Source: Myxococcales bacterium
GTDB taxonomy: Bacteria > Myxococcota_A > Polyangia > Palsa-1104
Length of the DNA stretch: 35,463 nt
NCBI GenBank assembly: GCA_003153195.1
Contig: PLXG01000033.1
Span: 2,828-38,290, forward strand
Reading direction: 5' to 3'
In this document: piece by piece, positions 22,131 through 33,386 of the stretch
Numbering within the stretch: position 1 is the first letter of the stretch
How the letters are laid out: each line of letters starts with the position of its first letter
Notes under the pieces: model-generated
Databases searched by the model: none
What the model saw: only the letters and a program-made list of their open reading frames with translations
Told to the model about the DNA's origin: nothing
Made by a program: the position numbers and the translations under genes

Positions 22131-23777
22131 ATGATGAGCCGAAATATGCGATCCATCGTCTTATTCGCCCTCCTATGTGGGGCTTGCGACACCAAGTCGT
22201 CGTCGCTCGGTATCGATGAAATTCCTCTCAAAATCGCGCAGCGCTGTCCGGGGGATCCATCCTGTCCCGACTCGGGCGACGGCAAGCTCTACGTGGGCGC
22301 CTCCAAGCGCAAGACCACGCCGGCGCTCGAGCCGTTCACCGATACCAATGGAAACGGATTTTGGGATCCAGGCGAAGCGTTCACTGACGAAAACGGCAAC
22401 GGCACCTACGACGCCTATTGGTTAGCCGGTCGCGACAACGCGCTCCTCGCCACTGCCGTTCACGACGATCTGTGGGCGCGCGGCTGGGTTGTCAGACAAA
22501 ATCAAACCACCATCGCATTCGTCAGCGTCGACCTGATCGGCTATTTCGTCGACGATGTGAAAGCGACACGCGTGCTGCTCGATCCGAGCTGGGGCATCGA
22601 TCTATTGGTGGTCTCGGCCACGCACGATCACCATGCGCCCGATCCGATCGGCCAGTGGGGCCCGGACGACTCGACCCGCGGCGTGAACGACAACTACATG
22701 GCATTTTTGCATCAGCAGATCGCCGGCGTGGTCGGCGAATGCGTGGCGGCGCTCAAGCCTGCCAAGATGACGGCGGGCTCCATTCTCACCGCAGACGGAA
22801 AAGATCTCACCAAGTACATCGGCGACGGTCGCGATCCGACCGTGATCGATCCGCGCATGCACGTGCTTCAGTTCGACGGCGCCGACGATGGCAAGCCCAT
22901 CGTCACGGTCGTCAACTGGGCTTCGCATCCCGATTCACTCGGCTCCCAGCACCGCATGGTCACCTCCGACTACGTGAACTACATGCGCGAGGAGGCAGAG
23001 CTCGGCACCGGCGATGACGTGGTGTTCGTGAACGCCGCAGTGGGCGGCCAGATCGGCCCCAGCAACGTGGTGGTTACCGACGCAAACGGCATGACTCACA
23101 CCGACGGCGAGCACGCCTATTCCTTCGTCGAGCCGTGGGGACGCGGCGTGGGAGATTTTGTGGCGCGCGCGCTCGATCCCACCCAAGGCGACGTCATCAC
23201 CGACGCGGCGCCGAAGATCAGCTTTCGCACTACGGCGTTTAAGATTCACGTCGACAACACGCGCTTTCAAGCGGCAGAGCAGATCGGCGTGTTCTCTAGG
23301 CCGTTCCAGGATTTCGACAAACACAAGCCGCTCATCGGCAATAACGCGCCGCAGACCGACACCGAGATGAGCTACATCCAGCTCGGCGATCAAGTTTCGC
23401 TCATCACCATGCCGGGCGAAATTCACCCCGAGCTCTGGATCGGCGGCTACGACAGCTCCGATACCTACAACTACCCGTTCATCGATTCGACCAAACCGAA
23501 TCCGATCAACTTGGCGGTCGCGCCCAAGGCACCCTATTTACGCGACATCATGGACGGCAATCCCAATCATCGAATGGTGTTCGGCCTGTCGAGCGACTTC
23601 CTCGGATACATCGTCGCCGATTGCAACTTCGTGCTCGATCCCAGCCTTCCTTATATTGATGATGCGCCCGGCGACCATTACGAAGAGACCAATTCAGTGG
23701 GAGCGCGCGCACAGCCGGAGATTGTGGGCACCGCCCGACAACTCGTGCTCGACGGAAGACCGAACGTTGCACGGTAG
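22131..23777 (+). CDS. Neutral-ceramidase-like lipoprotein
   Basis: This 548-residue lipoprotein has the lipobox L-C-G-A-C19. After it come two Asp/Asn-rich loops (DTNGNGFWDPGE and DENGNGTYD, about residues 70-96) that look like calcium-binding EF-hand-type loops. The rest resembles the N-terminal domain of neutral/alkaline non-lysosomal ceramidases: GRDNALLATAVHDDLWARGW, SVDLIGYFVDD, SATHDHHAPDP, NWASHPDSLG and VFVNAAVGGQIGP. The usual SATHTHSGPGG stretch is changed to SATHDHHAPDPIG, keeping histidines that would ligate zinc. These enzymes hydrolyse the amide bond of ceramide; other substrates are possible here. The start is ambiguous between 22131 and an ATG at 22146. A TGTAAT -10-like hexamer lies near 22108. 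Confidence 0.65.
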   Translation: MMSRNMRSIVLFALLCGACDTKSSSLGIDEIPLKIAQRCPGDPSCPDSGDGKLYVGASKRKTTPALEPFTDTNGNGFWDPGEAFTDENGNGTYDAYWLAGRDNALLATAVHDDLWARGWVVRQNQTTIAFVSVDLIGYFVDDVKATRVLLDPSWGIDLLVVSATHDHHAPDPIGQWGPDDSTRGVNDNYMAFLHQQIAGVVGECVAALKPAKMTAGSILTADGKDLTKYIGDGRDPTVIDPRMHVLQFDGADDGKPIVTVVNWASHPDSLGSQHRMVTSDYVNYMREEAELGTGDDVVFVNAAVGGQIGPSNVVVTDANGMTHTDGEHAYSFVEPWGRGVGDFVARALDPTQGDVITDAAPKISFRTTAFKIHVDNTRFQAAEQIGVFSRPFQDFDKHKPLIGNNAPQTDTEMSYIQLGDQVSLITMPGEIHPELWIGGYDSSDTYNYPFIDSTKPNPINLAVAPKAPYLRDIMDGNPNHRMVFGLSSDFLGYIVADCNFVLDPSLPYIDDAPGDHYEETNSVGARAQPEIVGTARQLVLDGRPNVAR

Positions 23778-24769: not shown

Positions 24770-25204
24770 ATGAAGACCATCATCGCCGCGCTACTGGTTT
24801 CACTGTGTGTAAATGCAGCTCGTGCCGACGAGCAGCCGAGCTTCGCGTGGCGCCAGGGGACGGCCGATCGAGAAGCGCTCGACTCCTATCGCAGTCTCAC
24901 CATGGCCGGTGGAATCATCTTCGGCGGCACTTACGTCGCCAACATCGCGGTGGCCAAAGAGTCCGGCGAGTGGCGATTTGCAGTTCCGGTGTTTGGGCCG
25001 TTCATGGCGCTTGCTCAAACGCACGGAACCAACCCGATCCTGGCGTTCGCCGGAATCGGCGCGGTGCTCGACGGTGTGATTCAGACCGGTGGACTGGCGA
25101 TGATGATCGCCGGCGCGGTCAAATACAGCGCGAAAAAGTCGAGCCTGCGGCGAATCGCGTTTGCACCCTCTGGACTCGGCCTAATGGCCGCTGGACAGTT
25201 CTAA
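24770..25204 (+). CDS. Small exported membrane protein of unknown function
   Basis: This 144-residue protein has a signal peptide (MKTIIAALLVSLCVNAARA, cleavage near residue 19). The mature part has two or three Gly/Ala-rich hydrophobic stretches, about residues 45-62, 68-84 and 92-120: AGGIIFGGTYVANIAV, AVPVFGPFMALAQ and ILAFAGIGAVLDGVIQTG. The end is RRIAFAPSGLGLMAAGQF. It looks like a small membrane protein with paired hydrophobic hairpins, but no known family is recognised. The ATG has a strong AGGAGG that can be folded into a hairpin (24751-24763). The stop codon at 25202-25204 overlaps the T-tract of a terminator serving a minus-strand RNA, so the two transcripts converge. Confidence 0.75.
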   Translation: MKTIIAALLVSLCVNAARADEQPSFAWRQGTADREALDSYRSLTMAGGIIFGGTYVANIAVAKESGEWRFAVPVFGPFMALAQTHGTNPILAFAGIGAVLDGVIQTGGLAMMIAGAVKYSAKKSSLRRIAFAPSGLGLMAAGQF

Positions 25205-25245
25205 AAAAGAAACGGCGCGATCCTTCGGTTAAGAGGGATGCGCCG
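25203..25245 (-). terminator. Intrinsic terminator of the minus-strand small RNA
   Basis: On the minus strand, CGGCGCATCC (25245-25236) pairs with GGATCGCGCCG (25223-25213), giving a 10-bp stem with one bulged G and a 12-base loop. It is followed directly by TTTCTTTTTT (25212-25203). This is a canonical intrinsic terminator in the leftward direction only; on the plus strand there is no T-run. Confidence 0.88.
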
Positions 25246-25258
25246 CTTCGAACATCAA

Positions 25259-25444
25259 AACCAACCGCTAGGCCGATGGAGTAGAAGTTTGAACCCCTAC
25301 ATTTAGTAGGTGGGTTCGGCTTAAAAATTAACCGATCTGGGCTTCCCGTCTAGCGGGCTTGCACGCCTCGGTCAGCGGCCGATCCCGGGCTCATGAGAGT
25401 AGGGAAAAAACAATCCCTCCTGTCGCACCCCGCAGTTTGGTTCC
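25259..25444 (-). ncRNA. ssrS: Small structured RNA, 6S RNA (ssrS)-like
   Basis: No open frame explains this stretch, yet the minus strand has a promoter, about 186 nt of foldable RNA and a terminator. Seen: a closing helix pairs AACC/AACUGC (25442-25432, one bulged A) with GCGGUUGGUU (25268-25259), extended by GGU/CGA and GGAG pairings. A distal arm spans 25374-25329 (UGACCGA with UCGGUUA, capped by CCCG-CUAGA-CGGG). Between the arm and the closing helix on the 3' side sits a small hairpin, GAACCC..CUAC with GUAG..GGGUUC (25317-25291). Known: closing stem, open central bubble with a small 3' hairpin, and a long arm, about 185 nt in all, is the layout of 6S RNA, which binds sigma70-RNA polymerase. 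The 6S assignment is inferred from fold and size; another sRNA class remains possible. The primary transcript would run on to about 25203. Confidence 0.6.
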
Positions 25445-25450
25445 TCTTCA

Positions 25451-25479
25451 ATTATAAGGAGGCCGAGCGGCTGCGTCAA
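25451..25479 (-). promoter_or_regulatory. Near-consensus sigma70 promoter driving the small RNA
   Basis: On the minus strand, TTGACG (25479-25474) and a perfect TATAAT (25456-25451) are separated by exactly 17 bases. The expected start lies near 25444-25445. This is the best housekeeping promoter I could find in the window; it reads away from the downstream plus-strand gene and into the 6S-like RNA. Confidence 0.88.
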
Positions 25480-25619: not shown

Positions 25620-25907
25620 ATGAGACGATTCTCTTTGATCTTAGGACTTGCGATTTCGAGTGTAGCTGCGATTCCCAGCGCGGCATTCGCCGGCATTGAC
25701 GCTCGCTCGAGTCGATTCGAAGCGCAAGTGCGCGCTCACTACGCGGCCCTCGGACGCAAGGTCGAATTGGTCACTGCACGCGCGGACGGATACGGAGCAG
25801 GCGCGAACGAGGTGGTCGGTTACGTCCGCGTGGCAAACCAACCCGAAATTCGCGAAGTGGCCGTGCGCGCAGATCGCGTGCGCGAGATTCGACGTCACTC
25901 GAATTAA
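25620..25907 (+). CDS. Small secreted protein, 95 aa
   Basis: The ATG at 25620 opens a classical signal peptide (MRRFSLILGLAISSVAAIPS, cleavage probably after AFA near residue 24). A longer GTG-started frame (25557) would bury the signal, so the short form is preferred. The mature 70 residues are helical and then mixed: SRFEAQVRAHYAALGRKVEL, VGYVRVANQPEIREVAVRA. The end is Arg/His-rich (REIRRHSN). No known family is recognised. It stands alone between the divergent 6S-like RNA and a convergent acetyltransferase gene 22 bases away. Confidence 0.62.
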   Translation: MRRFSLILGLAISSVAAIPSAAFAGIDARSSRFEAQVRAHYAALGRKVELVTARADGYGAGANEVVGYVRVANQPEIREVAVRADRVREIRRHSN

Positions 25908-25929: not shown

Positions 25930-26481
25930 CTAGAGCTTCGTGGATTTGCGGTAGCGATACAGAACATGGCGACTGAGCGGATGTCCCGGCGGCACGCTGG
26001 GATGATCGAAGTCGTCAGCGGGATTGCGTGACATCCCGATGCGCTCCATCACCCGCCGCGATCGTTTGTTTTGCTCGCTGGTGAATGCGACGATCTCGGG
26101 AAAGCGCAGTCGGTCGATGCCCACGTCGCGCGCTGCGTAAGCCGCTTCGGTGGCGAAACCGGATCCCCAGTGAGCGCGGGCGAGCCGCCAGAAAAGCTCC
26201 ACGCACGGAGTGAAGTGTGCCTCGAATCGGCTATGAAAAATTCCCACCGCGCCCACGAATGCGTGAGTGTCGCGATGCTCCACTGCCCAAACGCCGTAGC
26301 CGAACTTTTCGAAGTGCGTGGCGATGCGCTCGAGCTGCACCACCGACTCTTCGCGCGTCATGGTTTTCGGATAGTGTGCCATCACTTCGGGATCGGCGTT
26401 CATGGCCACGAACGGCTCGAGGTCGCTGTCGCGAAATCGGCGCAGAATTAATCGCGGCGTAGTGAGCTCGTCGATGTGCAT
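25930..26481 (-). CDS. GNAT family N-acetyltransferase, RimJ/RimL-like
   Basis: This 183-residue protein starts MHIDELTTPRLILRRFRDSD, the standard N-terminus of the RimJ/RimL/SpeG-like branch (T.RL.LR.....D). The acetyl-CoA binding motif is at about residues 100-125 (ELFWRLARAHWGSGFATEAA, matching the Q/RxxGxG/A type with G-S-G-F-A). The NKRSRRVMERIGM segment also fits the family. It transfers an acetyl group from acetyl-CoA to an amine; the substrate is unknown. It lies 12 bases beyond nuoI on the same strand and so may be co-transcribed with the nuo genes, occupying the place where nuoJ would be expected. Confidence 0.9.
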   Translation of the reverse strand: MHIDELTTPRLILRRFRDSDLEPFVAMNADPEVMAHYPKTMTREESVVQLERIATHFEKFGYGVWAVEHRDTHAFVGAVGIFHSRFEAHFTPCVELFWRLARAHWGSGFATEAAYAARDVGIDRLRFPEIVAFTSEQNKRSRRVMERIGMSRNPADDFDHPSVPPGHPLSRHVLYRYRKSTKL

Positions 26482-32775: not shown

Positions 32776-33386
32776 GAGCCCTCTCGAGTTGCGCGGAAGT
32801 ATAGGGAGGGGAGCGCGGTTATGTCAACGAAGAGATAGGCAAATTTCTATCCCCGCCCAGGCCTGCGAGGGGGCCTGTTTTTGAGCAGCCACACGGTCGG
32901 TTTAGTGTGCAAGACCGGCGCGTGCGAAAGGCCGCCCGTGAGCTCGAGAACAATCTCGAAATAGAGCGGGTGCTCGACGATTCCATCAGACGAATAGGGA
33001 TCGCGAAAATCGGCCGGCAGCTTTTCGCCACGCTGCCGCGCGTGGTGGGCGTAATTGCCACGGCCTTTTTATTGATGATGCTTCGGGACGCTGGCGCTTC
33101 GAACGGCCTCGGGGACGCGCAAAGCGCCGTTTGAGATCCGGATTCGGATCCGGATCCAGAAAAAAAACCGGCGAAGAACGTCGAAGGCAGCGGGGCAAAT
33201 CTGTGGGCAGGGACGCTCGAAATTACTTTCGAAAGCTGCGCGAAACCTGTCCCGACGCTGTCCATAGATTTAGAGCTGTGCTTAGTTGTGCTCGTCCCCG
33301 AGGCCGTTTCGCACCGCCGCCCCGAAACATCACGACAATTTCCGGCAACTGGCCACCCGCCTGCATCTGTTCTATAACCACCCCGT
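32776..33386. other. 611-base intergenic region between nuoA and the DUF155 gene
   Basis: This divergent region holds no confident gene. A 75-codon plus frame at 32907-33134 (GTG start) has gene-like codons early and a hydrophobic stretch (LPRVVGVIATAFLLMML), so a small membrane protein is possible; I give it little weight. Four GATCCG-type hexamers run from 33135 to 33158, followed by a run of eight A. A long minus-strand open frame here is Ser/Arg-rich and looks like a GC artefact. Promoters for nuoA and the DUF155 gene must lie here, but none is convincing. Confidence 0.5.

Follow-up and report, generated by a model that had tools for sequence, protein, structure and literature searches.

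A canonical 6S RNA gene in the genome of a member of the Myxococcota

A stretch of 35,463 nt from a Myxococcales bacterium (GCA_003153195.1, contig PLXG01000033.1, positions 2,828–38,290 of the forward strand; hereafter the window) carries on its minus strand a genuine, canonical 6S RNA, a member of a known RNA family. 6S RNA is the small RNA with which most bacteria hold back their main RNA polymerase, and it is typically abundant and increases into stationary phase. The best explanation of the locus as a whole, in which we have very high confidence, is a 6S gene (ssrS) whose precursor would be trimmed and whose mature RNA would block the polymerase holoenzyme until its release is driven by synthesis of a product RNA (pRNA). 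The additions to what is known of 6S RNA are modest and comprise the position of the gene downstream of the nuo genes and a lineage model that finds genes missed by the Rfam model.

Identity and transcription unit of the 6S RNA

The Rfam 6S model RF00013 matches the locus with 76.2 bits (E 1.7e-13 in the window) over all 187 model positions, the curated gathering cut-off being 46.4 bits. This is the sole Rfam match in the 35-kb window; no Rfam family besides 6S, and no Ms1-type match, was found at the locus with E values up to 1, and the locus is also the sole 6S match in the source genome assembly, which is 71.7% complete. A lineage covariance model built here from 20 sequences (R1) scores the RNA at 158.8 bits, the sequence itself being among those 20. 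A first-pass annotation of the raw letters had read the size and layout of this unit as 6S-like and proposed an RF00013 search as a check; the end-to-end match above the gathering score bears the reading out, and a real 6S gene is thus recognisable by careful reading of raw sequence. Its reservation that the primary sequence was too diverged for certainty turned out to be needless, as the full-length match lies well above the cut-off. Its suggestion that the gene might be missed by standard annotation fails for the window gene, which Rfam-based annotation finds, and holds for the 6S genes of some related genomes.

Table 1. Coordinates of the 6S unit, its structural elements and adjacent genes in the window
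Feature	Position	Strand	Remarks
-35 element TTGACG	25474–25479	-	5/6 consensus
-10 element TATAAT	25451–25456	-	6/6 consensus
6S RNA	25258–25441	-	RF00013 full-length; 184 nt, about 186 with 5' GA
Closing stem, 5' strand	25423–25440	-	pairs with 25260–25276
P2 5' strand GUUUUUUCCCUAC, putative product-RNA template	25399–25411	-	aligned with 6S family bubble (Rfam alignment)
5' central bubble	25387–25398	-	distal part UGAGCCC, 25387–25393
Distal arm with terminal hairpin CCCGCUAGACGGG	25312–25386	-	paired in alignment with two-sided changes
Small 3' central-bubble hairpin CCUAC-UAAAU-GUAGG, 5 bp	25296–25310	-	92% of cells paired
Bubble-collapse helix, UGAGCCC with GGGUUCA	25387–25393 with 25290–25296	-	covariation and species swaps
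Closing stem, 3' strand	25260–25276	-	Rfam alignment and covariation
Intrinsic terminator	25203–25249	-	hairpin 25249–25209, then U tract 25208–25203 (UUUUUU)
Gene converging on the 6S unit	24770–25204	+	no Pfam match
Gene diverging from the 6S unit	about 25620–25907	+	no Pfam match
GNAT acetyltransferase gene	25930–26481		between nuoI and 6S

In the family alignment and consensus fold, a large internal bubble separates the closing stem from a distal arm with a terminal loop; the RNA falls within the size range of 180–200 nt and forms a single autonomous transcription unit with promoter and terminator sequences (Table 1). The features drawn by the first-pass annotation, an RNA of about 186 nt with closing helix, long distal arm and small 3'-side hairpin, are found just where it had placed them. 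E. coli ssrS and RF00013 share with it all 187 positions, the closing stem, the central bubble, the distal arm with terminal hairpin and a sigma-70-type promoter of its own, whereas the primary sequence of the bubble and the nuo genes as neighbours set the window 6S apart. Folded alone, the 6S part has an unremarkable energy (z = -1.8; 10 of 200 shuffles equally good), so that the evidence for 6S comes from the covariance model and from covariation, not from stability. The whole precursor, folded as a lone sequence, does not take the shape of 6S.

The TTGACG-17-TATAAT promoter previously noted on the minus strand agrees with the sigma-70-type consensus at 11 of 12 positions; the DNA of related loci, where the background frequency was counted, has only 8 sites scoring at least 11/12 in 1.15 million strand-bases. 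The 6S RNA begins about 7–9 bases downstream of it, and from the promoter spacing, transcription would start at about 25444–25442. TTGAC-type boxes occupy the equivalent position upstream of most related 6S genes. The terminal hairpin plus U tract, likewise described before, is present 8 nt beyond the 3' end of the 6S RNA, with a minimum free energy of -25 kcal/mol (z = -4.6) that none of 200 shuffles equalled, and the same arrangement is seen in the nearest relatives (G001–G004). A simple terminator scan with a stated loop limit of 3–8 did not list this hairpin, likely because its stem is interrupted. Judged by the terminator position, about 50 nt would be trimmed from the 3' end to give mature 6S.

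Termination appears to be arranged differently in other families. In f9 and f10 (e.g. L021, L015, L024 and L007), a separate terminator hairpin cannot be recognised downstream of the 6S RNA and the closing stem leads straight into the U tract, so that the closing stem may act as the terminator, unlike in the window's own family, where a separate hairpin follows a short linker.

Covariation, the central bubble and the proposed release cycle

The primary covariation test used a plain MAFFT alignment of nine order-level sequences that had been fitted to no structure. On this alignment, 84% of cells are paired in the Rfam structure and both partners have changed in 11 pairs; all 500 shuffles fall short on each of the five measures, and only 31–50% pairing is left when the partners are slid by 1–3 columns. 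The closing stem, whose covariation in relatives had been named beforehand as a check, is supported by two-sided changes in 7 of its 17 pairs, and an alignment of 20 sequences gives much the same covariation. In a model-fitted alignment of 63 distinct sequences, such changes are found in all 17 closing-stem pairs and in 36 of the 48 pairs overall, counts that are secondary to the nine-sequence test because fitting leans towards the structure by construction. The distal-arm helices, two mismatched model pairs aside, are 93–100% paired and changed on both sides. The closing stem, the region of P2 and the distal arm are thus all backed by covariation, and a little-studied group of bacteria gains a 6S structure with comparative support.

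Helix P2 is formed by GUUUUUUCCCUAC paired with GUAGGGGUUCAAAC, and in 49 of 52 sequences the own partner pairs better than the mean of species-swapped partners. The template core CCUAC in its 5' strand is nearly invariant in 66 loci. A product RNA 5'-GUAGGGAAAAAAC is predicted, starting opposite the C at 25399; by the Rfam consensus, this position, about C43 of the RNA, appears to be equivalent to E. coli U44. The 3' strand of P2 can be divided into two parts: GUAGG is complementary to the CCUAC just upstream, giving the small 3' hairpin, and GGGUUCA to the distal 5' bubble, giving the collapse helix, with one base, G146, common to both structures. The potential of the bubble to rearrange is therefore present in these complementary sequences, and for the collapse helix in covariation too.

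Among 63 sequences, the covariation score of the collapse helix is 0.312 compared with 0.156 in shuffles, none of 500 being as high, and it falls to 0.05–0.12 when the strands are slid, though pairs in which both partners have changed are no more numerous than in shuffles. The native partner beats the mean of swapped species' partners in 46 of 52 cases. Species swaps and a model-fitted alignment were used for this helix because a class-level alignment by plain MAFFT puts a portion of the 3' bubble strand in the wrong place. The 3' hairpin is nearly invariant, and so covariation is silent on it either way. Comparative support for the bubble-collapse helix hereby extends beyond Firmicutes and Aquifex.

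In family f5 (e.g. L113, L118, L125, L143, L145 and L146), the collapse helix appears to be weak or absent, although P2 and the template core are retained.

In the 6S RNAs that have been studied, product RNA is transcribed by the polymerase from the 5' bubble strand and P2 opens; an extended 3' hairpin in gamma-proteobacteria, or a bubble-collapse helix in Bacillus subtilis and Aquifex, then forms before 6S is released (PMC8876501). The window 6S resembles B. subtilis 6S-1 in its small 3' bubble hairpin, which in 6S-1 exists already in the free RNA, and both B. subtilis 6S-1 and Aquifex 6S in having a collapse helix that joins the P2 3' strand to the distal 5' bubble; it differs from them in the sequence of that helix, and its hairpin strand GUAGG also complements the template core CCUAC. 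Compared with the extended 3' hairpin of 9 bp in gamma-proteobacterial 6S, the bubble hairpin of the window is short, at 5 bp (PMC8876501).

By analogy with these RNAs, transcription from the gene's own housekeeping-type promoter would run to the hairpin terminator and yield a precursor of about 240 nt, probably trimmed to a mature 6S of about 185 nt. The rod with its open central bubble would mimic an open promoter and bind the housekeeping-sigma holoenzyme, which would remain blocked as long as nucleotides are in short supply. Once these are available again, the polymerase would make a short product RNA (predicted to begin GUAGGGAAAAAAC) from the 5' bubble strand, and its synthesis would open helix P2 and free the 3' strand. 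The GUAGG half could then form the small 3' hairpin and the GGGUUCA half the collapse helix with the distal 5' bubble, whereupon the polymerase would be released. Such a cycle would follow those published for E. coli and B. subtilis (PMC8876501).

It is very improbable that this RNA has changed partner in the manner of Ms1, a 6S-shaped RNA then binding the polymerase core or something else and not the housekeeping-sigma holoenzyme. The form of polymerase that is bound cannot be read from the fold alone, and Ms1 of actinobacteria, structurally related to 6S and similar in overall shape, binds the core (PMC9130861). The window RNA, however, matches 6S over its full length well above the cut-off and no other family at the E values covered, and its near-invariant template strand and covarying collapse helix are best explained by a holoenzyme that synthesises product RNA.

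Distribution of 6S genes in relatives

RF00013 finds matches in 51 of 58 relatives, 45 of them above the cut-off, and the score of the window 6S is among the higher ones of this group. Six of the seven RF00013-negative relatives (G012, G020, G023, G027, G031 and G047) are found by R1 to carry 6S, with E values of about 1e-11 to 1e-32, so that 57 of the 58 have the gene; the lone exception is G014 (74% complete), in which neither RF00013 nor R1 found 6S. When the phylum was sampled more widely, RF00013 matched in 100 of 190 genomes under strict filters, and R1 matched in 69, including some additional ones. Since R1 recovers genes that RF00013 misses, the Rfam model is not fully sensitive in these relatives, and R1 offers a means of recovering 6S genes overlooked in related genomes.

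That the locus is a decayed or unexpressed copy, with the working gene in an unassembled part of the genome, is more improbable still. The incompleteness of the assembly leaves room for such a gene, and a few relatives do carry two 6S genes. Nevertheless, the promoter, the terminator and all helices of the window copy are intact, the model score ranks high within the group and covariation shows upkeep, and each of the four other members of the window's family has one 6S copy. A chance promoter with inverted repeats between two protein genes and no RNA gene, a reading that a fold energy just 1.8 standard deviations below shuffles might favour, is already refuted by the model match and the covariation, together with the presence of 6S in nearly all relatives, and has practically no probability left.

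Two different 6S genes each are present in G028 (L007/L111), G036 (L011/L110), G044 (L003/L112) and G052 (L009/L109), all of family f10, and also in G022 (L030/L126), every copy in these genomes scoring above the Rfam cut-off. B. subtilis also has two 6S genes, 6S-1 and 6S-2. In G021, a strong 6S gene about 125 bases after nuoI was reported by R1 alone (144.8 bits), and the Rfam model gave instead a weak place of 38 bits on another contig, perhaps a diverged copy, perhaps a match by chance (the two places are C131:6745-6924 and C102:589-770; L141 and L132).

The nuo neighbourhood and the source genome

Myxococcota and deltaproteobacterial loci usually have 6S just past nuoI, at the end of the complex I (nuo) genes. 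Among nuoH loci of these groups with enough sequence, 37 of 52 have a 6S gene within 2.5 kb after nuoH, a proportion that is not unbiased for the phylum since the loci were picked by similarity to the window nuoH and in part belong to genomes that also contributed to the model. The median distance from nuoH to 6S is 843 bases, and 6S lies on the nuo strand in 34 of the 37 linked loci; of 15 nuoH loci from other phyla, none has 6S nearby. The 6S strand is reversed relative to nuo in several genomes (e.g. G001, G018, G022, G034 and G038) and many related 6S units have a promoter-like site of their own, which makes 6S an autonomous gene. Conserved 6S neighbourhoods have been described elsewhere, for instance rarA/uspA in lactic acid bacteria (PMC8414754), and of the papers found to mention both 6S and nuoI, none deals with such a linkage in its title or abstract. 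It seems unlikely that 6S is functionally tied to the complex I operon, being kept after nuoI, and is at the same time released by a two-part switch of hairpin and collapse helix; if it were so, read-through or co-regulation could couple the hibernation of polymerase to cellular energy status. The conserved nuo-6S neighbourhood is in any case an aid to finding and testing 6S genes.

The source organism is uncultured, and its genome is metagenome-assembled. A 16S rRNA gene was not found in the assembly, and the genome was therefore placed by its nuoH. The closest relatives of this gene lie in metagenome-assembled genomes that bear the labels Myxococcales, Polyangium, Polyangiaceae, Kofleriaceae and Deltaproteobacteria, so that the genome belongs to the Myxococcota. 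An intact RpoD above the curated cut-off was not found in this draft genome, the best RpoD match lying below it. The RpoD C-terminal region is present as two overlapping pieces in different reading frames (G000:C308:10923-11568, L140), which suggests a frameshift or an assembly error.

Two further observations concern the rest of the window. A second promoter-like site with 11 of 12 consensus positions, TTGACA-18-TATACT, lies at 32827 on the minus strand, upstream of the nuo genes and on the same strand as these. In addition, the protein encoded at 22131–23777 (+) is weakly similar to neutral/alkaline ceramidase, at a score below the Pfam cut-off.
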